This document shows, piece by piece, positions 1,488 through 64,000 of a DNA stretch of 64,000 nucleotides. The position numbers were made by a program, and so were the translations under genes. The notes beneath the pieces were generated by a model. That model did no database searches, was not told the origin of the DNA, and saw only the letters and a list, made by a program, of their open reading frames with translations. The stretch's first letter is position 1. Each line of letters begins with the position of its first letter. Location: assembly GCA_021732845.1 (NCBI GenBank), contig JAKFUF010000005.1:1-64000 (forward strand), given 5' to 3'. The stretch is from Planctomycetaceae bacterium (GTDB lineage Bacteria > Planctomycetota > Planctomycetia > Planctomycetales > Planctomycetaceae).

Positions 1488-2549
1488 TCACAGCACTTGC
1501 TCTAACTGAGGTCGATGCTCCACAAGCCATCTGTGGATGTCGTCCAAAATGGTGTCCACGGTGTGAACCGGCCGCCAATCGTAGGCAGCTTGGACGCGGG
1601 AACAATCGCTGAGGTAAATGCGAATGTCGGTCGCGGCTGTTTCTGGAACGGCGGCAATCGGCACCGTTTGACCAGTCCGGTGCCGACAGTGTTCGGTCAA
1701 CTCTTTCAAGGACAGAGAACAATCCAGGCCGCCGCCGACATTGAAAATCTGTCCGTCCCACCCCGTCTGGCTCCGCATCTGCTTGACGATCAAGCCAGCA
1801 AGGTCGGCGACGTGCAGCATGTCGCGCACCTGCTTGCCGGTGCCGCCATAGCCCAGGTAGCGCAGGCCCTGCTGAAACAGATGCCGCGACATCCAGTAGG
1901 TCACCACCCCCTGGTCCACCTTGCCCATCTGCCACGGCCCAGTCAGGATGCCGCAGCGGTTGATCACCGCCCGCATGCCGTGGCTATGGACGTATTCCTG
2001 GATGAGCAGTTCGGCGGACAACTTCGTCGCGCCATACAGGGAACGAGGCCCGTACAGTGGGAAGTCCTCATTGATCCCCGTGGCTGAACTGCCGGGCAAA
2101 CGCTGCTGCCCAGCAAGCGTGAAACGCGTCTCGGCTTCGACGAAATCAAGCTCGTTGATCGCCGCGATGGGGTAGACGCGGCTCGAACTCAGGAACAGGA
2201 ACGCCGCGTGTTGCTTGCGTGCGGCTTCCAGGCAATGGATCGTGCCGATGAGATTGGGATTGAGAACCTGCATCGGCGACTCGCCGATGCCCGCATGGAC
2301 CGAGGGCTCGGCGGCACAGTCAATGAGGAGGTCAAAGGCAGGCAGCCGTTCAAAATCTTCGGGACAGCGGACGTCCAGATGACAAAAACCGACGCCGTGC
2401 TGCCGGAGTCTTGGCAATGCCAGTTCCGATCCGCGCCGCTTGAGACTGTCGGCGCAGGTGATCGTCAGGCCGATTCGAAGTTCCTGCAGGAAGATCGCCA
2501 GGTTTGAGCCGACAAAGCCCGCTCCGCCCGTGATGACCAGCCGCTGCAT
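1488..2549 (-). CDS. NAD-dependent epimerase/dehydratase, CDP-paratose 2-epimerase-like
   Basis: 353 residues of extended SDR. The Rossmann motif TGGAGFVGSNL is at residues 7-17, the SSSRVY strand at 121-126 and the catalytic YGATK pair at Tyr172/Lys176. The stretch NRCGILTGPWQMGKVDQG resembles the CDP-paratose/tyvelose epimerase group. It should act on an NDP-sugar in the cytoplasm. The ATG chosen lies one base after the stop of the upstream epimerase, so the two are translationally coupled; an ATG nine bases earlier is also possible. With the upstream glycosyltransferase it forms a tight three-gene unit. The sugar itself cannot be read from sequence. Confidence 0.85.
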   Translation of the reverse strand: MQRLVITGGAGFVGSNLAIFLQELRIGLTITCADSLKRRGSELALPRLRQHGVGFCHLDVRCPEDFERLPAFDLLIDCAAEPSVHAGIGESPMQVLNPNLIGTIHCLEAARKQHAAFLFLSSSRVYPIAAINELDFVEAETRFTLAGQQRLPGSSATGINEDFPLYGPRSLYGATKLSAELLIQEYVHSHGMRAVINRCGILTGPWQMGKVDQGVVTYWMSRHLFQQGLRYLGYGGTGKQVRDMLHVADLAGLIVKQMRSQTGWDGQIFNVGGGLDCSLSLKELTEHCRHRTGQTVPIAAVPETAATDIRIYLSDCSRVQAAYDWRPVHTVDTILDDIHRWLVEHRPQLEQVL

Positions 2550-51800: not shown

Positions 51801-52339
51801 TCGCGGACGACCCGCATCCCGCGGCCGCCACCGCCATGGGCCGCTTTCAGGATGATCGGGTAGCCCAGCTTGGCGATCGCCTCCTCGGCCGCCGCGAGAT
51901 CCTTCACGGCCCGTTGAGTGCCGGCCAGCACCGTGACGTTGGCTTTCTGAGCCACCTCGCGGGCGGCGGTCTTGTCACCCAGCCGCTTCAGGGAGTCGAC
52001 CTGCGGGCCGATAAAGATGATGCCGGCATCGGCACAGGCCTGGGCGAAATTGGCGTTCTCGGACAAAAAGCCGTAGCCGGGGTGAATCGCATCCACCCCC
52101 TGCTTCACCGCGACGGCGACAATGCCGGGGATGTCGAGATAGGCCCGGATCGGCTCGCCAATCTTGCCCACTTCATACGCTTCGTCCGCCTTGAAGCGAT
52201 GCAGCGCGTAACGGTCTTCGTGCGAATACACCGCCACGGTGCGGATGCCCAGTTCGTGGGCACTGCGAAACACACGGATGGCAATTTCGCCACGGTTGGC
52301 GACAAGCAGTTTGCGGATTGGGGGCATCGGCGGGGACAC
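48878..52339 (-). CDS. pyc: Pyruvate carboxylase
   Basis: 1153 residues, full length. Biotin carboxylase (IRKLLVANRGEIAIRVFRSAHELG; ATP-grasp KAAHGGGGRGMR), carboxyltransferase (VTDTTLRDAHQSLLATRLRTYD near 550 and FHTHDMSG near 745), the PYC/OADA linker domain, and a C-terminal biotinyl domain with the biotin Lys in EAMKMETT are all present. It makes oxaloacetate from pyruvate, bicarbonate and ATP. The GTG start gives MSPPMPPIRK; an ATG four codons later is equally good. It lies about 70 bp before the sulfatase start, but functional linkage is doubtful. Confidence 0.95.
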   Translation of the reverse strand: MSPPMPPIRKLLVANRGEIAIRVFRSAHELGIRTVAVYSHEDRYALHRFKADEAYEVGKIGEPIRAYLDIPGIVAVAVKQGVDAIHPGYGFLSENANFAQACADAGIIFIGPQVDSLKRLGDKTAAREVAQKANVTVLAGTQRAVKDLAAAEEAIAKLGYPIILKAAHGGGGRGMRVVRDPKLLAGALEQAQREALTAFGNAEVFVEKFVERARHIEVQLLGDKHGNLVHLFERDCSLQRRHQKVVEIAPSPNLDPALRDRICAAALRIGNAVNYECAGTVEFLLDADSGQFYFIEVNPRIQVEHTVTEQVTGIDLVKSQILVAQGTPLSDPEIGIPSQSSVQISGYAIQCRVTTEDPQNSFMPDYGRMTHYRSASGMGIRLDAGTAFSGAVVTPYYDSLLVKVIADGRRLIDAVRRMERCLQEFRIRGVKTNIPFLINLIQHPTFLAGGCTTRFLDETPALFDFPARKDRATKLLTFLGDVIVNKNPLIKEKPKSLRRAPAPVPVLDVTKPLPKGTRDRLKELGAAKFSAWVREQKGLMVTDTTLRDAHQSLLATRLRTYDMLRIAEAYARLCPQLFSLEMWGGATFDTSMRFLRESPWQRLSDMRERVPNILFQMLLRASNAVGYTNYPDNVVQAFVKEAAQAGIDVFRIFDALNWVPNMRVAMDAVLETGAICEPAICYTGDILNPKRPKYSLKYYVELAKELEKMGAHILAIKDMAGLCKPYAAELLVKTLKQEIGIPIHFHTHDMSGVQGASILKGAEMGLDIADVAMAPMSGMTSQANLNSLVEALRFTPRDTGLDPEGLKQIAYYWEATRDFYAPFETGMKADDPNIYLHEMPGGQATNLYQQAASLGLSGRWSELCSLYADVNQLFGDIVKVTPTSKSVGDMALFLLANNMSAADVLTAERELAYPGGVIDLLAGRMGQPPGGFPAEVKAKVLRDTPAVDGRPGASLEPADFQATATQLEKVLGRTPNSQEVVSHILYPRVFEDFAAHQEAHSDVGVFPTDVFLYGMEPGSEVAVEIESGKTLIIRFLTIGDLHPDGTRQVFFELNGQPREVTVTDKSQKPQEEARPKADPNDPLQVPAPMPGMIVAVASQVGDRVTQGQKLITMEAMKMETTLYAESDGRIAELLVKPGVQVETGELLLRLEKA

Positions 52340-53012
52340 AAAAAGAGACGCACGGGACGGCTGGCTTGATGAGGATCAGGCCGCGGCGGACCAATGTAAC
52401 ACCACGGGCCGCCGCGCGGGAAGCACCACCGCATGACACCCGCCGGAAACCGCCGTCGCCGGCGCGAGCCGTCCGGTGATGAATCTCCCACTTCGTGGGG
52501 ATTCACCAGAGGGCTTGCGCCCGGCCGCTACTTTCAGTGCCCCGTGTCGGTCGTGCGACACTGCAACCCCACTGAGCTTGCCTCAGTGGATTCGGGCCTC
52601 TGCACTACGTCAATCGCCGGCGTGCGGCGTAGTGCGGTGGCCCGAATCCACCGAGACAAGCTCGGCGGGGAGGCGCGGTGTTCAATGTCCCGCGCGCCAA
52701 CCCCGGATGGTCCTGTCACGATCGCCGCCACCCACGACCATCACATGCGTGGCAAGGACCGGTTGCGGCGGCCGTGAGTCACAAAGTAGGCGAGTCACTC
52801 CGTGAATCGAACCCGACCGGAGTGACTCGGCGACTTTGTATTGCCTCTCGCTCTGCGAGAGGCACGGCGGTCCGGCGATGGCAAGGACCGATTAAACCGA
52901 CAGGCCCGCAACTCCGGTGGTAAACTGGCCTTTGCCCTACGCCGCGCGCACCGTTATCCGACGTAGTGCATAGGCCCGAATCCAACCCGACGAGCGGGGT
53001 GGGGCAAAAATC
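52340..53012. repeat. Palindrome-rich intergenic region
   Basis: No gene in the ~970 bp between pyc and yraN. Two large inverted repeats are visible: about 52575-52673 (GTGGATTCGGGCC and CTGCACTACG matched by CGTAGTGC and GGCCCGAATCCAC) and 52782-52838 (CAAAGTAGGCGAGTCACTC matched by GAGTGACTCGGCGACTTTG). A truncated relative of the first (CGTAGTGCATAGGCCCGAATCC) recurs near 52961-52983, next to the MITE-like element. Confidence 0.75.
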
Positions 53013-53293
53013 CTCGTTGTTACACACAAGTTGCCGACATCGGGGATTTCATGGTGCCGACCCACAGGGCGACGTGGCGGGAGGGCGAGGCTCCTGCCGA
53101 GCCGCGAGCAAAAAAACACACGGTCTTTACGGCGAATCTGGCCCCGTTCGTGAGGGACAGGCGGCGAGAAGCGGGCACGCACTGTTGACCGCGGCTCAGC
53201 AGGAGCTTCGCCCTCCCGCCACGTCGACATAGAATCAAACCCTACCACTTGCCGCGTGGCCGATGCCCCTGTCGACTTGTGTGTAACAACGAG
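53013..53293. mobile_element. MITE-like element, copy 1, with perfect 19-bp terminal inverted repeats
   Basis: 281 bp. The ends are CTCGTTGTTACACACAAGT and its exact complement. Both sides are flanked by the same 10 bases, GGCAAAAATC (53003-53012 and 53294-53303), as expected of a target-site duplication. The interior (53071-53226) is a long imperfect hairpin beginning GACGTGGCGGGAGGGCGAGG and ending in its complement. No transposase is encoded. A second copy in opposite orientation lies near 59.5 kb. Confidence 0.82.
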
Positions 53294-53308
53294 GGCAAAA
53301 ATCCCCCC

Positions 53309-53758
53309 TCAGCTAAACATCTGCCCTTCACCAGTCGGCTCAAAAGCATTGATGTAATGCCGGATCTCGGGCTCACCGGTCGCCGGCCAGAGGATGGCGA
53401 CGACATCAAACCGGGCGCGGCGTTCCAGCCAGTTGTGACGCTTGAGCCACGCCAACGCCAGACGGGTAAGCTGCGCCTGCTTCCGGCGGTCGACCGCCTC
53501 CACCGGATGTCCGGCGGCGGTCGATTCGCGGGTTTTGACCTCGACGAACACCACCGTCTGGTCAATGAAGGCGATCAGGTCGACTTCGCCCATCGCGGTC
53601 CGGTGCTGGCGGGCCAGAATCTTGTAGCCCCGCGCGGTGAGATAGGCCTCCGCGGCACGTTCGCCCCGATTGCCGAACGCCCGCAGCGCAGAAGACTGCG
53701 GCGGGCGTCTTAGTCGCTCCAGCCAGTCGCGGAGCCACCGCAGCACGTTACCCAACAC
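53309..53758 (-). CDS. yraN: YraN family (UPF0102) putative endonuclease
   Basis: 149 residues. [53 protein letters not shown] shows the family signature, with GEVDLI and VFVEVKTR forming the PD-(D/E)xK-like nuclease core. The GTG start overlaps the last bases of sufB, implying coupled translation; a TTG seven codons earlier is the alternative. Its role is poorly defined, with Holliday-junction or DNA-repair functions proposed. It is the last gene of the suf cluster. Confidence 0.85.
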
Positions 53759-55175
53759 TGCCTTCCATCTGCAGCTCAATTAGCTTGTTCATTTCCACGG
53801 CGTATTCCATCGGCAGTTCCTTCACCAGGGGCTCAATGAACCCGGTGACGATCATGGACGATGCTTCCGCCTCGCTCATGCCGCGGCTCATCAGGTAGAA
53901 GAGCTGCTCTTCGCCGATTTTGGAGACGCTGGCCTCGTGCTCGATGGTGACGTTGTCTTCATCGATCTCGATGTACGGGTAAGTGTCGCTGCGGCTCTGC
54001 GGATCCAGAATCAGCGCGTCACACACCACGTTCGACTTGCAGCCCGTGGCTCCGTTCACCACCTTGGCCAGCCCGCGGTAGCTGGCCCGTCCGCCTGCCC
54101 GCGAGATGCTCTTGGAGATGATGCGGCTGTAGGTGTCGGGGGCACAATGCACCATCTTGGCACCAGCGTCCTGGTGCTGACCCTTGCCGGCGAAGGCGAT
54201 CGACAGCGTTTCGCCACGGGCACCTGGCTCCATCAGGTAGATGGCCGGATACTTCATGGTGAGCTTCGAACCGAGGTTGCCGTCAACCCACTCCATCAGC
54301 GAGTCGCCGTAAGCCATGGCCCGCTTGGTGACGAGGTTGTAGACGTTGTTGGACCAGTTTTGGATCGTGGTATAGCGGCAGCGGGCGTTCCGCTTGACGA
54401 TGATTTCCACCACTGCCGAGTGCAGGCTGTTGCTGCTGTAGGTGGGCGCGGTACAGCCTTCGACGTAGTGCACCGAAGCGCCTTCGTCGACGATGATCAG
54501 CGTCCGCTCGAACTGGCCCATGTTCTGGGAGTTGATGCGGAAGTAGGCCTGCAGCGGGAAGTCGATCTTCACCCCCTTGGGGATGTAAATGAAAGACCCA
54601 CCCGACCAGACGGCTGAATTCAGGGCGGCGAACTTGTTGTCCGCCGAGGGGATGACCGAGCCGAAGTATTCGCGGAATAGATCTGGATGGTCACGCAGGG
54701 CCGAGTCGGTGTCGGTGAACAGCACGCCCTGCTTGGCCAGGTCTTCCTGCAAGCTGCCGTACACAACTTCCGACTCGTACTGGGCCTTCACACCCGACAG
54801 GTACTTCTTTTCGGCCTCGGGAATGCCGAGACGGTCGTAGGTCTTGCGAATGTCTTCCGGGACATCGTCCCAGCTCTTTTCCTGGCTGGCGGACGCCTTG
54901 ACGTAATAGAAAATGTCCTGGAAGTTCAGCTCGCTCATGTCGCCGCCCCAGGACGGCATCGGCTTGCTGAAGAAAATGTCCAGGGCGTCGAGGCGGAATT
55001 GCCGCATCCAGGCGGGTTCGCCCTTCATTTCCGAGATCTGGCCAACGATCTCTTTATCGAGCCCTTTGCGGCTAGTGAAGACGTACTTGTCGGTCGGATC
55101 GTTGAAGCCATAGGCGTAATCGCCAATGCTGACATCGTCCTTGACAGCGACATCGTCCTTAAGATCGGTAGCCAC
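53748..55175 (-). CDS. sufB: Fe-S cluster assembly protein SufB
   Basis: 475 residues. The sequence runs through FYYVKAS..., [87 protein letters not shown] and the C-terminal [37 protein letters not shown], all hallmarks of SufB. It is the scaffold of the SUF system, normally in a SufBC2D complex. The start is GTG, with GGGA nine bases upstream. SufC lies upstream; no SufD or SufS is in the window. Confidence 0.96.
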
Positions 55176-55307
55176 GGTATCTATTCCCTTTTTCGGATGG
55201 GGCAGAACCCACCGCTATGGATTTCTTCCAACTTGAAGATGCTGCGACCCTTGTCGGCCGGTGAAGTCCGCAGTGAGATTCACCGAATGACATGGCAATT
55301 TTCTGAC

Positions 55308-56144
55308 TTATTTGGCCCCGGTCGCTTCCAGCTTTCCCTTCGCCTCTTCCGCCGCCCGGGCTTCCTCTTCGGCGGCGTCCGGGTGGCGGGCACGCACGTT
55401 GGCATACCCATGATCGTGCAGTTCCTGCGCCAGCGAAGCGTCGCCGTTTTCCACGATCCGGCCAGCGAGAATCACGTGTGTCTGTGAAGGCCGGTTGAAC
55501 TCCAGCAGCCGTTCGTGGTGGGTGATGATGATCACACCCATGTCCGGACCGGTCAGACGGGCCAGGGATTCGCTCACGAACCGCACGGCGTCGCTGTCGA
55601 GTCCGGAGTCTGTTTCGTCCAGAATGGCGAACTTGGGACGGAGCATCGCCAGTTGCAGAATCTCCATCCGCTTCTTTTCGCCGCCCGAAAAACCGTCGTT
55701 GAGGTACCGCCGGGCGAACTCCAGGTCCATGTTCAACTCAGTCATCCGCTGCTTGAGTTCCTTGCGGAACGCGGCCATTGGGATGAGGCCCTCGCCCTCT
55801 TTGCGATTTGGATTGCGGACGTTCGAAACAGCATGGCGCAGGAAGTCGGCCACCTTCACGCCGGGAATGGTCACCGGATACTGGAACGCCAGGAACAGGC
55901 CGAGACGAGCCCGACCATCGGCTTCAAGCGCCAGAATATCGACGCCATCGATCGAGACTTTGCCGTCCGTGACTTCGTACTTGGGGTGGCCCATCAGCGC
56001 GTAGGCCAGCGTGCTCTTGCCCGAGCCGTTCGGACCCATCAATGCGTGGACTTCGCCCTGCCTCACCTCCAGGTCTACACCCTTGAGGATCGGCTTGCCG
56101 CCGACAGACACGCACAGGTTCTCGATCTTCAGCACCGAAGCCAT
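55308..56144 (-). CDS. sufC: Fe-S cluster assembly ATPase SufC
   Basis: 278 residues. Walker A is GPNGSGKSTLAYALMGHP near 38, the signature GFSGGEKKRMEILQLA near 150 and Walker B FAILDETDSGLDSDAVRFV near 172, the exact SufC form. It energises the SufBC(D) scaffold. The ATG giving MASVLKIENL is chosen over an upstream in-frame start. The C-terminal 25 residues are a Glu/Ala/Lys-rich extension beyond the usual end (about 250 residues). Transcribed before sufB with a 130-bp gap. Confidence 0.96.
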   Translation of the reverse strand: MASVLKIENLCVSVGGKPILKGVDLEVRQGEVHALMGPNGSGKSTLAYALMGHPKYEVTDGKVSIDGVDILALEADGRARLGLFLAFQYPVTIPGVKVADFLRHAVSNVRNPNRKEGEGLIPMAAFRKELKQRMTELNMDLEFARRYLNDGFSGGEKKRMEILQLAMLRPKFAILDETDSGLDSDAVRFVSESLARLTGPDMGVIIITHHERLLEFNRPSQTHVILAGRIVENGDASLAQELHDHGYANVRARHPDAAEEEARAAEEAKGKLEATGAK

Positions 56145-56287
56145 GGTTTCCGTTCGCGTTACTGATTCACTGCGCACCGCAAGCGTCGCCTGCGAGCGGT
56201 CAGCTCGTGTTTTTCCAGTGAACGGCCAAGGAGCGAACCTGCGTCACCACAGGCAGCCGTTCACAAACTTCGCTTCATCATCCGGCT

Positions 56288-56839
56288 TCAGACTTCAACA
56301 GTCTGTGGTACCGCCACATAACCGCTGTGATGCGGAACCGGCAGTTGATCGACAGCACCGCGGGCAATCCGCTTGGCCTTGATCTTGTCCTGGACCCGCA
56401 TCAACCCTTCCAGCAGCGCTTCCGGACGCGGTGGGCAGCCGGGAACGTACACATCCACCGGCACCACCAGGTCGACACCCTTCACGACGTGATAGCCATA
56501 CTTGAAGTACGGGCCGCCACCGACCGTGCAGGCTCCCATGGCGATCACATACTTCGGATCGGGCATCTGCTCGTACAACCGGCGGACGCGGCTGGCCATT
56601 TTGTAGGTCACCGTTCCGGCGACGATCATCAGATCGGCCTGCCGCGGCGTCGCCCGGAAGGCACCCGCGCCAAACCGGTCCATGTCGTAGCGGCTGGCAC
56701 CCGCGGCCATCATCTCGATGGCACAGCAGGCCAGACCGAACGTCATCGGCCAGATGCTGGACTGCCGCGCCCAGTTCGTCGCCTGCTCGATGGTGGTGAC
56801 CATCAGGTTTTCTTCAAATTTGCCGTCAATCCACGTCAT
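56288..56839 (-). CDS. nuoB: NADH-quinone oxidoreductase subunit B (NuoB-like)
   Basis: 183 residues. The [4Fe-4S] (N2) ligands are seen in [20 protein letters not shown] and [14 protein letters not shown]. The protein is full length for NuoB. It should be the N2-cluster subunit of complex I, but no other nuo gene adjoins it. It stands between sufR and sufC on the same strand, so it may be under Fe-S-responsive control. An orphan nuoB is unusual. Whether a second copy exists in a nuo operon elsewhere cannot be seen here. Confidence 0.92.
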
Positions 56840-56952
56840 GATGTTCTCACTGAGACCCACTTGTCACGGCCACCGCCATGCCATCGGCCACGATCCTGAC
56901 CAACTGACCACTCCACGGTCGATGCCAACCGCCTGCCCTGCGAACATAACCG

Positions 56953-57639
56953 TTACACTGGCACCACAGCAACCGTTCCCGTTGGAGATTCGCCCCGAAA
57001 CTCCGCGCCCGGGACGTGGCTCGCCGACCCAACCTCAAATTCACACCCGCGATGCCCGTCCATGCAGCATTGCGTCAGCTTCACCGGAACGCCGAGCACC
57101 TGCTCGAAGACATCCTGCTCAAGCTCACAGATTCCGCGATCTTCGTCCGCCAGCTCCTGGTAGGGGCAACTGTGTTCACGCAGGATGGGAAGCCCGGCCG
57201 TCCCGCCAACTTCCACGTCATACCCGTGGCCCACCAGCCCGTCACGCAACCGTCGCAGCCGTTCCGCGAGCTGCATGCCGTCCATCGAGCCAAACCGCTG
57301 CACCATCGCGTCCCGCACCCGCCCGGTCACCTGCTGCCGCACCGCGGGATCCTCGATTCGCTGGACTTCCCGCCACAGGATCAGAGCCAGATCGCCGTAG
57401 TTGTCGCCAAGCTGCCGCCGCGCCTTGACCGTCACTTCATACACATAATGTGGCCGACCGCGCCCGGCCCGAACCAGCCGCCGCCCAATCAGTCCGGCCC
57501 CCTCCAACCGCGTGAGCCGCTGCCGCACGGCGGTCGCCGTCACCCCCAGGTTGGCACCGATCTCCTGCACCGTCCCTGGACCGCTGCGGTGAAGATCCGC
57601 CAAAAACTGCGCGTCGGAACGCTCAAGCTGATTGTGCAT
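56953..57639 (-). CDS. sufR: SufR-like Fe-S-sensing transcriptional regulator
   Basis: 228 residues. A winged helix (TVQEIGANLGVTATAVRQRLTRLEGAGLIGRRLVRAGRGRPHYVYEVT) is followed by a helical dimer domain and a cysteine cluster: Cys158, Cys171 (separated by 12 residues), Cys191/192 and Cys199 in LTQCCMDGHRGCEF. This matches SufR, which binds an Fe-S cluster and represses suf genes. It is the first gene of the nuoB-sufC-sufB-yraN strand. A 10-bp direct repeat overlapping its start codon is a candidate operator. Confidence 0.88.
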   Translation of the reverse strand: MHNQLERSDAQFLADLHRSGPGTVQEIGANLGVTATAVRQRLTRLEGAGLIGRRLVRAGRGRPHYVYEVTVKARRQLGDNYGDLALILWREVQRIEDPAVRQQVTGRVRDAMVQRFGSMDGMQLAERLRRLRDGLVGHGYDVEVGGTAGLPILREHSCPYQELADEDRGICELEQDVFEQVLGVPVKLTQCCMDGHRGCEFEVGSASHVPGAEFRGESPTGTVAVVPV

Positions 57640-57741
57640 AATTGCTTACATCCGCCGACCCGCGCCTGCCGACCCTCACGGAATGTTGTTGCCTTTCCAG
57701 AATCTTAATGGGTATGCGTATTTTTGACAACCATAATTGCT
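57637..57741. promoter_or_regulatory. Direct repeats CATAATTGCT at the sufR promoter
   Basis: CATAATTGCT occurs at 57637-57646, overlapping the sufR start codon, and again at 57732-57741 in an AT-rich stretch. Two identical 10-bp sites 95 bp apart in an otherwise GC-rich region suggest binding by an autoregulator. The rest of the 303-bp gap to the plus-strand DUF1501 gene shows no gene. Confidence 0.5.
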
Positions 57742-57942
57742 AAAAATAATCTGAGTGAACCTTGCCTTCTATGCGGAGTCGGGTCTTGGCCTTGGGAGCG
57801 GTCACACCGTCAACCGCCCACCTGCGTGTTGATTGAGGTTGTTCCTGGTCGGGCTGGGACGTATCATATCAATTGTTATTGATGAACTTTGAAGTGTGGA
57901 AGGTACTCGGCGCGAAGCAGGGATTGGCGAGAGATCAAAACT

Positions 57943-59412
57943 GTGGCTCAACCAGCACTCACCACTTCGCGACGAACGTTCCTGGTTGCCTCGACGTGCG
58001 GCCTGGCGGGAATGTCGTTCGGCCAGCCGTTGGCGGCCGCGCCAGAAGTGAGCGAGGGATCCCGACAGCGGATGAAGAAGCGCAGCGAGCAAGATTTGCC
58101 AGTGACGGGTGGACAATCCGGTCGGGCGAAGTCGACAATCCTGTTCTTCCTCAGCGGCGGGGCTTCCCACATTGACCTGTGGGACATGAAGCCACAAGCT
58201 CCGGCAGAGTACCGCGGGCCGTTTCAACCGATTGCCACATCGGCACCCGGCGTGCAGCTCTGCGAGCACATGCCGCTGTTGGCCCGGCAGGCACATCATC
58301 TCGCGGTCGTCAACAGCGTTCGTGGCTCGGTCAGCACGAATGATCACCACGCTGGCTACTACTACAACCTGACCGGCCACGTTCCCGATCCGACGTTTCT
58401 GTCCCTGGGAAACAACCGCACGCCGTATGCGGATGACTGGCCTTGCATGGGGGCCGTCGTAGGAGCCAAGCGGTCACTGCATTCACACCTCCCGAATTTC
58501 ATCACCCTGCCGCAGAAGGAGGGCGCGCCGGCCTACACCCGCCCCGGACAGTTCGCGGCGAAACTGGGGCTGGAGTTTGATCCGCTGTATGTGGAGGGCG
58601 ACTCGAAAAACCCGCTGAAGTTTCAGGTTCCGGCACTGGTGCTGCAGGAGGGAACGACTGCGACCCGCCTGAACGACCGGCACACGCTGTTGCAAAGGCT
58701 CGATGAGACGCGGCGCGATTTTGACAGCAGTGCGGAGGCTCAGACTTGGAATGCCCAGCAGCAGCGGGCGATGTCGTTGCTGCTGTCGACCGGCACGACC
58801 ACGGCGTTTGACGTAACGCGTGAGCCACAGGCGTTGCGTGAACGGTACGGCGAGACCGTGAACGGCATGAGCCTGCTGGCGGCCCGGCGGCTGGTCGAGG
58901 CGGGTGTGCCGTTTATCACTGTCTTCTGGCGCGGCGACCCGGACAGGCTGAACAAGAAGTGTGCCAGCGGCGGTGGCTGGGACACCCATGGCAACAATTT
59001 TGGCTGTCTCAAGGAAGATTTGCTCCCCGAGTTTGACCGGGCTTATTCGACACTGATTGACGACCTGGCGGCGCGCGGGTTGCTTGACGAGACGCTGCTG
59101 TTGGTCACCAGTGAAATGGGGCGCAAGCCCAAGATTGGCGACCCGCGCAGCGGTGGCGTCAACGGAGCCGGCCGCGACCACTGGACGCACTGCCTGACGG
59201 ACCTGCTCGCCGGCGGCGGCATCCGCGGCGGGCAGACCTACGGGGCCAGCGACCGCTTCGCCGAGTACCCGGCCAGCAAACCAGTCACGCCCGCCGACAT
59301 CACCAAAACCGTTTATCATGCGATGGGCATTCACGACCTCGAGGCCCGCGACAGCCAGAACCGCCCCTACAGCCTGCAGGCCGAAGGGGATCCGATCCAT
59401 GAGCTGTTTTAA
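57943..59412 (+). CDS. DUF1501 domain-containing secreted protein
   Basis: 489 residues from a GTG with GAGAG upstream; an upstream TTG frame is unlikely. The twin-arginine signal is SRRTFLVASTCGLAGMSFGQPLAAA. Core blocks are SGGASHIDLWDMKP near 80, ASGGGWDTHGNNFGCLKEDLLPEFD near 345 and TSEMGRKPKIGD / GRDHWTHCLTDLLAGGG. The segment just after the signal (VSEGSRQRMKKRSEQ) is encoded by DNA resembling the REP-like repeat, so the mature N-terminus may be repeat-derived. Exported through Tat; function unknown. Confidence 0.9.
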   Translation: MAQPALTTSRRTFLVASTCGLAGMSFGQPLAAAPEVSEGSRQRMKKRSEQDLPVTGGQSGRAKSTILFFLSGGASHIDLWDMKPQAPAEYRGPFQPIATSAPGVQLCEHMPLLARQAHHLAVVNSVRGSVSTNDHHAGYYYNLTGHVPDPTFLSLGNNRTPYADDWPCMGAVVGAKRSLHSHLPNFITLPQKEGAPAYTRPGQFAAKLGLEFDPLYVEGDSKNPLKFQVPALVLQEGTTATRLNDRHTLLQRLDETRRDFDSSAEAQTWNAQQQRAMSLLLSTGTTTAFDVTREPQALRERYGETVNGMSLLAARRLVEAGVPFITVFWRGDPDRLNKKCASGGGWDTHGNNFGCLKEDLLPEFDRAYSTLIDDLAARGLLDETLLLVTSEMGRKPKIGDPRSGGVNGAGRDHWTHCLTDLLAGGGIRGGQTYGASDRFAEYPASKPVTPADITKTVYHAMGIHDLEARDSQNRPYSLQAEGDPIHELF

Positions 59413-59458
59413 CGTGTGGAGCCGCTTCCAACCCAAATTTGGCGGCAGGGCGCAAGCC

Positions 59459-59723
59459 CTCGTTGTTACACACAAGTCGAGCAAAAGTTTGTTTTCCGCA
59501 TTGTCATCGACGTGACGGGAGGGCTTGGCTCCTGCCGAGCCGGGAGCAACCAACGACCGGGCTTTTTTGTTGCGAAAAATGCGTCATTTGCCTGGCCGCG
59601 ATGACCGGGATCAGCGCGCACCGTTCCCCGCGGCTCAGCAGGAGCTGGAGCCCTCCCGCACCGTCGCCCCGTGGGTCGGCGCCATGAAATCCACGATGTC
59701 GGCAACTTGTGTGTGACAACGAG
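59459..59723. mobile_element. MITE-like element, copy 2
   Basis: 265 bp. The ends are CTCGTTGTTACACACAAGT and ACTTGTGTGTGACAACGAG (one mismatch). The 10 bases GGCGCAAGCC flank it on both sides (59449-59458 and 59724-59733). The interior has the same hairpin family as copy 1 (GACGTGACGGGAGGGC...GAGCCCTCCCGCACCGTCG), and the end sequences show it lies in reverse orientation to copy 1. It occupies most of the 435-bp gap between two DUF1501 genes; nothing else is seen there. Confidence 0.82.
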
Positions 59724-59847
59724 GGCGCAAGCCCTCCGGTACTGGCCGGGCGAAGTGTTAGAAATCAATAACCGGACGGCTCGCGCCGTGCCGCTAAAAC
59801 TGGCATGATCATCGATCTTGAATGAATGCGGGATAGAGGCATCGGAC

Positions 59848-61263
59848 ATGAGTTCACCACGCATCCACCGCCACACACTGGGCCTCTCCCGGCGCGAACT
59901 GCTGCAGGTTGGCTATTCGGGACTATTCGGCCTGGGGCTGCCCACGCTGCTCGCCCAGCAGGCGTGTGCCAAGGCCACTTCTTCCGAGACCACGCGGCCC
60001 GGAGTGAAGCGGGCCCGCAGTGTGATTTTGATTTTCCTCACCGGCGCGCCCAGTCATCTCGACATGTTCGATTTGAAGCCGGAGGCGGCCGCCGAAGTCC
60101 GTGGCTCATTTCAGCCGATTGCCACGCGCACGCCGGGGATGGATGTCTGCGAACACCTGCCCCGGCTGGCCGCGCTGTCGGACAAGTACGCGGTCATCCG
60201 CTCGATGACGCACGGGTTGCCGAGCCACGAGCATGCGACGCACATGCTGCTGACCGGCATCAACAAGATGCCGGTGGGCTCGACGCACATGGCCTCGCGC
60301 TCCGACTGGCCGTGCTATGCCTCGACGCTGGACTACCTGCGGCCCAGACATGACGGCATTCCCAACGGCGTGATGCTGCCGACGTATCTCAATAATGGCT
60401 ACGGGTTCTCGGGGCAAGATGCCGGCTTCCTGGGAGCAAGGTACGACCCGTGGCACATCAAGCAGGATCCCAACGACCCCAAGTTCCGTATCGAGAACCT
60501 GAGCCTACCGGTGGGGATGACCGTCGATGCCCTCGCCCAGCGGCGCGAGCTATTGGCCCGGTTCAATGCCCAGTCAGAGGGCATTGACCGTGCCCGCCCG
60601 GTGGCCGAGTTCAACAGCTACCAGGATCAGGCGATGACGATCTTGACGGCCAGCGCCATCGGCCGCGCCTTCGCCATCGACCAGGAACCCGCCGCAGTCC
60701 GCGACAGCTACGGCCGGCACCAGTTCGGCCAGTCTCTGCTGTTGGCGCGGCGGCTCATGGAGGCCGGAGTCCCGATCGTGCAGGCCAACATGGGTTCGAT
60801 GAACAACTGGGACACCCACAACAGCAACTTCACGCAACTCAAAGACCGGCTGCTGCCGCCGCTCGACCAAGGGGTCTCCGCGCTGCTGGAGGATCTGGGA
60901 AGCTCGGGCCTGTTGGAAGAGACGCTGGTGGTGATGGTGGGTGAATTCGGCCGGACGCCCAAGATCGGCGGCAACGTCGGCACACCGAGCTACGTGCCCG
61001 ACGGACGCGACCATTGGGCCGGCGTGTTCTTCGCTCTCCTCGCCGGAGCCGGCGTGCGCGGCGGGCAGGTCCTTGGCAGTTCCGACAACATCGCCGCCTT
61101 CCCCGCGTCCAGCCCGTTCTATCCCGCCGACCTCGGCGCAACCATCTTCGCGTCTTTGGGAATCGACCCGCACAGAATCATCAAGGATCGACTCGGCCGC
61201 CCCATGTCGGCCAACGAAGGCGAGCTGATCGCGCAGCTTTTCAGCGGTGCTGCCAGCGCATAG
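59848..61263 (+). CDS. DUF1501 domain-containing secreted protein
   Basis: 471 residues. A twin-arginine-like signal is GLSRRELLQVGYSGLFGLGLPTLLAQQA. The core shows LTGAPSHLDMFDLKPEA near 70, MGSMNNWDTHNSNFTQLKDRLLPPLD near 330 and VGEFGRTPKIGGN / GRDHWAGVFFALLAGAG near 370-410. The first 10 codons of the longer open frame are dropped in favour of the ATG at MSSPRIHRH. A paralogue of the preceding DUF1501 gene, separated from it by the MITE-like element; the pair and the following PVC-type dehydrogenase share a strand. Confidence 0.92.
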   Translation: MSSPRIHRHTLGLSRRELLQVGYSGLFGLGLPTLLAQQACAKATSSETTRPGVKRARSVILIFLTGAPSHLDMFDLKPEAAAEVRGSFQPIATRTPGMDVCEHLPRLAALSDKYAVIRSMTHGLPSHEHATHMLLTGINKMPVGSTHMASRSDWPCYASTLDYLRPRHDGIPNGVMLPTYLNNGYGFSGQDAGFLGARYDPWHIKQDPNDPKFRIENLSLPVGMTVDALAQRRELLARFNAQSEGIDRARPVAEFNSYQDQAMTILTASAIGRAFAIDQEPAAVRDSYGRHQFGQSLLLARRLMEAGVPIVQANMGSMNNWDTHNSNFTQLKDRLLPPLDQGVSALLEDLGSSGLLEETLVVMVGEFGRTPKIGGNVGTPSYVPDGRDHWAGVFFALLAGAGVRGGQVLGSSDNIAAFPASSPFYPADLGATIFASLGIDPHRIIKDRLGRPMSANEGELIAQLFSGAASA

Positions 61264-61424
61264 TCGCGAGTGCACCCAGGCCGCCCTCTTTGAGATCCCA
61301 CATTCGCGACTCGACGCTCCAAAAGCGATCGAGACGAGCGGGGTGACGTCAGTCGTCGTTGGTACGCACCACTCGACGGAGGTGCTGGCGACATTCGAAA
61401 TTGAGCGGTGGCAATTTGCGGGGC

Positions 61425-61509
61425 GACGTGGCGGGAGGGCGAAGCTCCTGCTGAGCCGTGGTAAACAGTAGCTCGCGGCTTGGCAGGAGCCGCGCCCTCC
61501 CGCCAAATC
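61425..61509. repeat. Partial copy of the MITE hairpin
   Basis: GACGTGGCGGGAGGGCGAAG, then CTCCTGCTGAGCCG, a short spacer, and GGCAGGAGCCGCGCCCTCCCGCC match the internal hairpin of the two full elements. The 19-bp ends are absent. It lies in the 399-bp gap before the PVC-type dehydrogenase; the rest of the gap shows no gene. Confidence 0.7.
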
Positions 61510-61662
61510 GTTCGTGCAATCGAAACGAACTGTTTGTCACAGTTGTGTCCATCAACCACGACATCACACCCTTGGTAGACGGGTTCGAATCGGGTAACAC
61601 TCAATCGAGAATCCGTCTTCGAAAATCGAACATAGCAGCACCGCGCTCACTCGGGAGGCACC

Positions 61663-64000
61663 ATGTCGCAGGGTTATTGTCGGGTGGTCGGGTTTTGCGT
61701 GGCCTTGGTTGTTGCTGTAGCATCCGCACATGCGGCTGAGCCACTGCCACGGTCGCACGATCCGCGGGTCAAAATTGAGCTGGTGGCAGAAAATCCGCAG
61801 CTCAACACGCCGACGGGTGTCGATGTCGACAGCCAGGGTCGCGTGTGGGTCGTCGAAAGCAACACGCACTTTCCGCCCGAGGGTTACAAGGGGCATCCCA
61901 CGGATCGCATCCTTGTCATGAGCGACAGTGACGGGAACGGCTCGCTCGACAAGAGCATCATGTATGCCGACGGGCTGACGTTCACCATGAGCATTGCCGT
62001 CAAGCCGGCGTGGCTCGATGGGCCGACGTTCACGAAGCCCGCCGAACCCGTTAAGGCCGCACCGACCACCGTGTATCTGGCGACACGCAAGGAAATCCTG
62101 GTGAGCCACGACACGAACGGGGATTTCGTGGAGGATGACCGCCAACGGCTGGTGCTGCTCGACACCGAGGGCAACTACCCGCATGACGGTCTGGCTGGGT
62201 TTGCCTTCGACGCGTTGGGCTGGATGTACTTCGGCTGCGGTGAAAATCTGGGAGCCGACTACAAGGTGATCGGTTCCGATGGCACGACGCTCTCAGGCGG
62301 CGGCGAGGGCGGCAACGTCTACCGCTGCCGGCCGGATGGGACACAGTTGACGCACTGGGCCACGGGCTTCTGGAACCCGCACGCCAGTTGCTTCGATGCC
62401 TTTGGGAACATGTTCACCGTCGACAACGACGCCGACAGCCGCCCGCCGTGCCGGCTGTTGCACATCATCCAGGGCGGGGACTACGGCTTCCGTTACCGCA
62501 CCGGCCGCAAGGGGCTGCACCCGTTCACCGCGTGGAACGGCGAGATCCCCGGCACGCTGCCGATGGTCGCGGGAACCGGCGAAGCCCCGAGCGGCATCCT
62601 GGCCTATGAGAGCGATGGCCCGGCGGCACTGCCTGCCGAGTATCAGGGCCAACTGTTTGCCGGAAGCTGGGGCGACCACCGCATCGACCGGTTCAAGTTG
62701 AAACCGAAGGGAGCGTCATTTGAATCGATCGCCGAGCCACTGATCACGGGCGGCGAGAACTTTCGTCCGGTCGGCTTGGCGACGGCTCCAGATGGGAGCA
62801 TCTATTTCTCTGACTGGGTGCTGCGCGATTACAAGCTGCATGGCCGCGGGCGCGTCTGGCGGCTTTCGGGTGTGAAACCCGAGGCCGTTTCGAAGTCGAG
62901 CGATCCGGCAGCTCCAGAGCTTGAACGGCTGCATTCCCCCACGTTGAATACACGCCGGCTGGCGGCGCAGTCGATGGCGGCGACGAGCGAGGGCCGGAAA
63001 GCGTTGCTGGCTGTGTTCTCTGATGTCAAAGACACTGCTCGCGCGCGGGTTGAAGCGTTGTGGGCTCTCGCGCAGACACCGGTGGATGTGGAGCAGGTTG
63101 AGTGGCCGGTGGCTCTGATTCCGAAGGATCCCAAAACCTGCGATGAGCCAGTGGTGGCGTCTGCAGGTTTGGTGGAGACGTCGCAGTTTCTCAAGCATCC
63201 CTACGCAGAGAAATTTCACGCGTATACAGATGGTTTGTTCACTCTGAGTTCTCCAGCGGCAGTGAATTGGTTGCTGGTAGCAAAAAATAACTGGCAGCGG
63301 GAGGGCGTGAAAGGACCGGCATTGGACGATCCGGTGGAGTGGGATCCATTCATGAACTCTGCGGCAGTGCAGTATGCAATTCGAAACAACATGCTTGGCG
63401 CACCGTTGCGCTGGGTTAATGCGGTCGGGTTTTCTCGCACCGTCGACCATCTGAATCTTATTCAGGCGCTGGTCATCCGGCGCACAGCTCCGAAAAGCGA
63501 AGCGATTCCAAGGCAGCTCTTAAAGGTTCACTCTGAAGCTTTGCGGCGAATTGCCGTCCAATGGGTTGCCGAAGAGCGTCTCACCGCACTGCGGCCCGAT
63601 GTCGACGCACTGCTGAATGATCCCCGCATGTCGTCCGAACTATTCCTTGCCACGCTGGCGGCGGTGCAGATGCTGGACGGCGTGAGCCCCGTCGATTTCG
63701 ACAAGACCCCGCCGGGGAGGTATGTGCTTCCCATTGTGAAGGACGAGGCGCGGACTCCGGCAATCCGCGCCCTGGCGCTGCGGCTGGTTTCGCCACAGGA
63801 TCCCGCGCTGGACGCCAGGCTGATGGCAGGGCTGCTGCAAAGCAAGGAGCCCGCCCTGCGACTGGAGGCGGTGCGAACGCTGCAGACATCGCCGCTGCCG
63901 GAAGCCCCCGGGTTGTTGCTGGCCGTTGCCAAAGACAACCAGGCTGCAATCACCTTGCGGGCAGAGGCGATTGTCGGCCTGGCGCCCGCGGCGCAGAAAA
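61663..64000 (+). CDS. PVC-type propeller dehydrogenase/haem-binding protein, 3' end outside the window
   Basis: At least 779 codons, open to the window edge. GGGAGG precedes the ATG. A signal peptide (VVGFCVALVVAVASAHAAEP) leads to a six-bladed propeller typical of the Pirellula/Verrucomicrobium membrane-bound dehydrogenase group (TIGR02604): VKIELVAENPQLNTPTGVDVDSQGRVWVVESNTHFP, GNYPHDGLAGFAFDALGWMYFGCGE, WATGFWNPHASCFDAFGNMFTVDNDAD and EYQGQLFAGSWGDHRI. HEAT-like helical repeats begin near residue 420 and continue to the edge. The family usually ends with a CxxCH cytochrome domain, which would lie beyond the window. Likely periplasmic sugar oxidation. Confidence 0.9.
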   Translation, partial: MSQGYCRVVGFCVALVVAVASAHAAEPLPRSHDPRVKIELVAENPQLNTPTGVDVDSQGRVWVVESNTHFPPEGYKGHPTDRILVMSDSDGNGSLDKSIMYADGLTFTMSIAVKPAWLDGPTFTKPAEPVKAAPTTVYLATRKEILVSHDTNGDFVEDDRQRLVLLDTEGNYPHDGLAGFAFDALGWMYFGCGENLGADYKVIGSDGTTLSGGGEGGNVYRCRPDGTQLTHWATGFWNPHASCFDAFGNMFTVDNDADSRPPCRLLHIIQGGDYGFRYRTGRKGLHPFTAWNGEIPGTLPMVAGTGEAPSGILAYESDGPAALPAEYQGQLFAGSWGDHRIDRFKLKPKGASFESIAEPLITGGENFRPVGLATAPDGSIYFSDWVLRDYKLHGRGRVWRLSGVKPEAVSKSSDPAAPELERLHSPTLNTRRLAAQSMAATSEGRKALLAVFSDVKDTARARVEALWALAQTPVDVEQVEWPVALIPKDPKTCDEPVVASAGLVETSQFLKHPYAEKFHAYTDGLFTLSSPAAVNWLLVAKNNWQREGVKGPALDDPVEWDPFMNSAAVQYAIRNNMLGAPLRWVNAVGFSRTVDHLNLIQALVIRRTAPKSEAIPRQLLKVHSEALRRIAVQWVAEERLTALRPDVDALLNDPRMSSELFLATLAAVQMLDGVSPVDFDKTPPGRYVLPIVKDEARTPAIRALALRLVSPQDPALDARLMAGLLQSKEPALRLEAVRTLQTSPLPEAPGLLLAVAKDNQAAITLRAEAIVGLAPAAQK

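Follow-up and report, generated by a model that had tools for sequence, protein, structure and literature searches.

The window, meaning the whole stretch of 64,000 nucleotides of Planctomycetaceae DNA that was analysed, contains two short related elements, whose parts and surroundings are listed in Table 1. Element 1, together with its right direct repeat, stops just past the stop codon of a YraN-like open reading frame on the minus strand (53309-53779), and element 2 lies between two open reading frames which, judging from their translations, we take to be DUF1501-like.

Both elements are bounded by the same 19-bp end sequence, found four times within the window against zero matches expected by chance, and their orientations are opposite, as inverted pair I1 (75 nt, 92% complementary) shows. 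A sequence-only reading of this DNA had described two such full copies with an internal hairpin in each. This was borne out: element 1 is perfect at its ends, element 2 is one base off, inverted pairs were found inside both, and each element folds as a single long hairpin (z, relative to shuffled sequences, -11.5 for element 1 and -7.0 for element 2). The claim that each copy has a 10-bp direct repeat of its own also held, the repeats being exact in both cases. A third place, 61425-61509, had been taken for a hairpin-only remnant. It proved to be a decayed full copy instead, since both ends are still recognisable around the hairpin and none of 3000 random window draws was as good on either side. 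Search of the region 52300-62000 against Rfam was without match.

Other repeats occur in the neighbourhood. A repeated palindrome (52567-52670, 52-nt arms, no spacer) has a partial copy at 52960-53004, directly left of element 1, and similar sequence is also present beside another locus of the genome (L067). A short inverted repeat around GAGTCACTCCG (52781-52839, 22-nt arms, 15 apart) recurs in other parts of the genome, next to several MITE copies.

Table 1. Elements and associated features in the window
Feature	Position	Strand	Remarks
Element 1, non-autonomous MITE, 281 bp	53013-53293	+	perfect 19-bp inverted ends
Element 1, left terminal inverted repeat	53013-53031	+	CTCGTTGTTACACACAAGT
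Element 1, right terminal inverted repeat	53275-53293	-	exact inverted match to left end
Element 1, left target-site duplication GGCAAAAATC	53003-53012	.	identical to 53294-53303
Element 1, right target-site duplication GGCAAAAATC	53294-53303	.	identical to 53003-53012
Element 1, internal REP-like inverted pair	53070-53226	.	42-nt arms 53070-53111 and 53185-53226, 90% complementary
Element 2, MITE, 265 bp	59459-59723	-	ends with 0 and 1 mismatch to consensus; orientation from inverted pair I1
Element 2, internal REP-like inverted pair	59508-59666	.	from inverted repeat, folding and copy comparison
Interrupted REP CGGCAGGGCGCAAGCC, left half	59443-59458	+	includes 10-bp duplication 59449-59458; rejoined site 0 mismatches to REP pattern
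Second copy of 10-bp duplication and right REP half CTCCGG	59724-59739	+	duplication GGCGCAAGCC is 59724-59733, exact repeat of 59449-59458
Inverted partner REP of the interrupted REP pair	59772-59795	-	uninterrupted paralogues align across junction into start of this region
Decayed MITE copy	61355-61559	.	ends 61355-61373 and 61541-61559, 14/19 each, around hairpin 61424-61510

Copies in the host genome

The host genome is a 9.25-Mb draft assembly of 262 contigs, 96% complete. At up to three mismatches, 29 matches to the ends were found in it, compared with 1 for a reversed-pattern control. About 12 copies possess both ends and measure 233-289 bp; further copies are partial. They are thus shorter than 500 bp, non-coding, bounded by terminal inverted repeats, present in several copies and flanked by a copy-specific 10-bp target-site duplication, and their ends are common to autonomous insertion sequences (L053 and L195) that occur in other genomes and are absent from the host assembly. 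The interpretation as a MITE family, already proposed from the letters alone, is supported by the copy-specific duplications. Several copies are 95-97% identical to element 1, so part of the family has spread relatively recently.

At the ends of contigs C11 and C57, a group II intron (RF00029, 54 bits; 1581-1660, minus strand), identical in the two cases, splits two MITEs (L023 and L027) inside the internal hairpin region. Contig C63 carries two identical-looking MITE interiors (L070 and L071, positions 48-247) which have no ends and lie in opposite orientation about 40 kb apart; they share the same flanks and apparently sit inside a larger inverted duplication.

Direct repeats are target-site duplications

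Exact 10-bp repeats flank seven copies: L003 (GGCAAAAATC), L005 (GGCGCAAGCC), L010 (GAGCCAAGCC), L013 (GGCTTGCGCC), L017 (GGCGTAAGCC), L024 (GGCTCAAGCC) and L026 (GGCTGAAGCC). Considered on both strands, these are six different 10-mers. In addition, L021 has a 10-bp repeat with one mismatch and L006 an exact 11-mer next to a damaged end. Because the repeats are copy-specific, we regard the flanks as target duplications. The sequence-only reading had left room for the flank being part of the element, whose true ends would then be 29 bp long, and the two window flanks are indeed alike (GGC..AA..C), nearly all copies of the host genome fitting the shared form GGCNNNNGCC. This form is, however, the centre of a palindrome, found without any element within hundreds of palindromes; the left flank recurs on the right in direct, not inverted, orientation, and the flanks vary from copy to copy. 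Identical 10-mers in many copies, the outcome that was to decide against target duplication, failed to appear when genomic copies were collected. We have rejected the 29-bp ends on the ground of these copy-specific flanks and consider them hardly credible.

Elements insert at the centres of palindromes

Where, then, does the likeness of the flanks come from? The full target, CGGMAGGGCNYRNGCCCTCCGG, is present at 562 places (up to three mismatches) in the host genome versus 9 for the control; the pattern itself was drawn from insertion sites, and the genome-wide count is its independent part. Compared with a slightly looser REP pattern, which the scored sites informed and which is matched at up to three mismatches at 0.000065 of window positions, rejoined L005, L021 and L006 have 0 mismatches, L013 has 2 and L010 has 3. 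The rejoined flanks of element 2 align straight through the junction with more than 15 other places of the host genome, i.e. with paralogous empty sites; when an orthologous empty site was sought in relatives, coding sequence alone aligned. Since rejoined flanks are palindromes, most often of the REP family with about 560 places, their shared GGC..GCC look reflects target preference. The resemblance pointed out earlier is real, and the site preference offered as one of its two explanations accounts for it.

Not all copies lie in the REP at the same position. L003 differs from the main REP by 8 mismatches, L017 by 7 and L026 by 9. The target of element 1 is the palindrome GTGGGGCAAAAATCCCC, outside the REP family, those of L024 and L026 are other palindromes, and that of L010 is a REP-like hairpin carried by the MITE itself. 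What the sites have in common is symmetry about their centre. When bases around the duplication centre were paired, 135 complementary pairs were counted at 21 sites from 6 genomes, where random positions within those loci would give 69 (p = 5e-5, the lowest value the test can return). A wider sample from genome G430, whose sites overlap between the two tests, comprised 16 direct-repeat sites (15 of them with 10-bp repeats) and gave 76 pairs versus 48 (p = 5e-5). Centring on some palindrome is therefore the general rule, and the REP is the most often used target.

The length of the direct repeats is not the same everywhere: it is 9 bp in L042 and L053 (with one mismatch in the latter), 10 bp in the host genome and in G430, and 12 bp in G428. 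All of them are centred alike; in G428, flanks of L200 and L201 stop one base nearer the same dyad.

Internal hairpin

The inverted pair of REP-like units that makes up the internal hairpin is matched in 31 of the 61 family genomes examined, at up to 592 places in a single one (G046), which has no end match at all. When the ends were followed across 150 genomes of the family, they were confined to the host genome, save for one match with a single mismatch in G131. Since the hairpin is widespread and the ends practically restricted to one genome, the hairpin is a separate repeat family which became part of the MITE. MITEs of two other genomes (G428 and G434) contain short palindromes as well, of another sequence, and one copy in G430 has none that is obvious. 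At two loci, Y1 (RAYT-like) transposase genes were found within or beside target REP copies (L137 and L140), and at the second of these the units follow each other every ~83 bases.

Full-length insertion sequences with the same ends

When the GTDB collection was scanned for exact matches to CTYGTTGWTACACACAAGT, 30 contigs were returned, nearly all from Planctomycetota; the one from Colwellia (L040) is likely a chance match. At four loci, paired ends 1571, 1575, 1593 or 1594 bp apart enclose transposase genes (L042, L046, L053 and L195). Two of these insertion sequences are intact, L053 (1594 bp, transposase of 498 aa) and L195 (1571 bp, 497 aa); the transposase of L042 has an internal stop and that of L046 is split into two frames. 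The L053 protein contains Pfam domains PF14706, PF01609 and PF02281 and matches Tn5 transposase structures (E 6e-21) in an alignment that also pairs the catalytic aspartates and glutamate. Both intact transposases score above the NCBIfam IS4 cut-off and possess the IS4 family motif Y-(2)-R-(3)-E-(6)-K (YLLRWMIELFFKVLK in L053, YCVRWMIEVFFRTLK in L195). Compared with the Tn5 outside end, the ends are identical at 14 of 19 positions, a value reached by 6 of 200000 shuffles. The sequence CTCGTTGTTACACACAAGT also fits the end consensus of the IS50 subgroup, CW------Y---CA-A--W-, at all seven positions; direct repeats of this subgroup are 8-9 bp long (PMC2266710).

In G428, the intact insertion sequence and MITEs of 257-268 bp occur together, in one shared palindrome, GGTGTATTCACC. 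A transposase with matching ends, which the sequence-only reading had suggested looking for, thus exists in other planctomycetes; in the host genome itself, searched with PF14706 and with the L053 protein, no Tn5-type transposase was detected. Just 4 of 13 genomes with these ends have a transposase match, all of them being drafts, in which repeated insertion sequences can collapse. Between the host MITEs and the full insertion sequences no obvious common sequence was seen outside the 19-bp ends. The L053 and L195 transposases are relatives and may be regarded as candidate mobilisers. Automatic end search around more distant transposases of the phylum (29-41% identity) gave no convincing ends except for L128, which likewise lies within a palindrome. 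The 6.1-Mb genome of Thermoguttaceae SKYB124 (G430) has 171 end matches and no detectable partner transposase.

Discussion

The elements described here are, very probably, MITEs of an IS4-family insertion sequence of the IS50 (Tn5) type, moved in trans and integrated symmetrically at palindrome centres. Paired ends, insert-specific direct repeats, palindromic centring and uninterrupted paralogous targets were all seen directly. So were full-length insertion sequences of other planctomycetes that carry these ends, and the coexistence of such a sequence with MITEs in one genome. We propose that a transposase from a full-length relative would bind the 19-bp ends, excise the element in a cut-and-paste manner and open a short palindrome, usually a REP, with a staggered cut placed symmetrically about its dyad, into which the element is then joined. 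The stagger of 10 bases would leave gaps, and their filling would yield direct repeats of 10 bp; some other genomes have repeats of 9 or 12 bp. The host genome would have lost its transposase gene, or the gene would have escaped assembly. Such a mechanism is ordinary, and what is unusual is how selective the landing site is.

It is conceivable that a transposase of a different family mobilises the MITEs, their end likeness to Tn5 and to the L053 and L195 insertion sequences being convergence. The host genome, where no Tn5-type transposase was detected, would fit such a view; nevertheless, the exact 19-mer bounds full-length Tn5-type insertion sequences in other planctomycetes, and MITEs of G428 coexist with one such sequence in the same target palindromes, which makes convergence quite improbable. 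Even less probable, in our opinion, is mobility through a RAYT (Y1 transposase), the element being a REPIN-like unit and its Tn5-like ends incidental. Admittedly, the element holds an inverted pair of REP-like units, the host genome has five Y1_Tnp matches, two of them adjoining REPs, and the hairpin spreads independently of the ends, as seen in G046. Transposition of the RAYT/IS200 type, however, is not known to create a 10-bp duplication or to require 19-bp inverted ends. Mobility by Y1 enzymes proceeds without target duplication, whereas 10-bp duplications are present here; moreover, ends and exact direct repeats are kept in MITEs of other genomes despite their different interiors.

Within the Tn5-type explanation, we can only tentatively suggest, considering it possible yet doubtful, that the transposase reads the symmetry of its target (two half-sites or an extruded hairpin) and not a fixed sequence. 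The stagger would therefore be symmetric around the dyad and differ by palindrome; repeat length does vary by genome (9, 10 or 12 bp), and in G428 the distance from the end of a flank to the shared dyad is either 5 or 6 bases. If so, a lineage of insertion sequences would re-adapt to the REP family of its own host.

Targeting of REPs by insertion sequences is already published. Tobes and Pareja described REPs as such targets, including the IS4-family ISRm22, inserted at the palindrome axis with 6-bp repeats, and remarked that palindromes are frequent among Tn5 targets, the duplication having G/C at its ends (PMC1525189). Our elements resemble ISRm22 of Sinorhizobium meliloti, all of whose copies occupy the axis of a REP palindrome (PMC1525189), in family and in kind of target. 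They differ from it in that ISRm22 belongs to the subgroup IS4Sa (PMC2266710), makes 6-bp direct repeats, is present as autonomous copies and comes from another phylum. With IS50/Tn5 they share the three Pfam domains, the YREK motif, the end consensus and palindromic targets with G/C at either end. Direct repeats are longer, however (9-12 bp, typically 10, versus 8-9), as are, slightly, the insertion sequences (1571-1594 bp versus the published typical 1350-1550), and strong use of REPs and other palindromes is added, together with MITE derivatives. The latter agree with known bacterial MITEs derived from insertion sequences in being short and devoid of coding sequence, in their terminal inverted repeats and target duplications and, presumably, in mobilisation in trans. 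Like GTAG REPs with their REPINs and RAYTs, the palindrome mainly targeted is present in many copies, forms inverted pairs and often has xxAG (in some cases GTAG) in front of it, and at two loci Y1 transposase genes lie near target REPs; unlike there, REPs serve here as landing site and internal passenger, not as the source of mobility.

In the open-access literature searched, we found no IS50-type MITEs inserting in REPs. New are an IS50-type lineage in Planctomycetota, its direct repeats, which measure 9-12 bp instead of the published 8-9, and MITEs with REP-like hairpins of their own. REP-targeted insertion now extends to the Tn5 lineage, for whose transposase solved structures and an in vitro system exist, making palindrome recognition and stagger length directly testable. 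Small repeats are nested here, MITEs within REPs and REP-like units within MITEs; such nesting accounts in part for the load of intergenic repeats that these genomes carry.

In three G428 copies (L195, L197 and L198), the two flanks are reverse complements of each other, not direct repeats. Hairpin-mediated insertion was set aside as an explanation; the arrangement suggests recombination between copies located in oppositely oriented palindromes or loops, similar to a proposal made for ISRm22.
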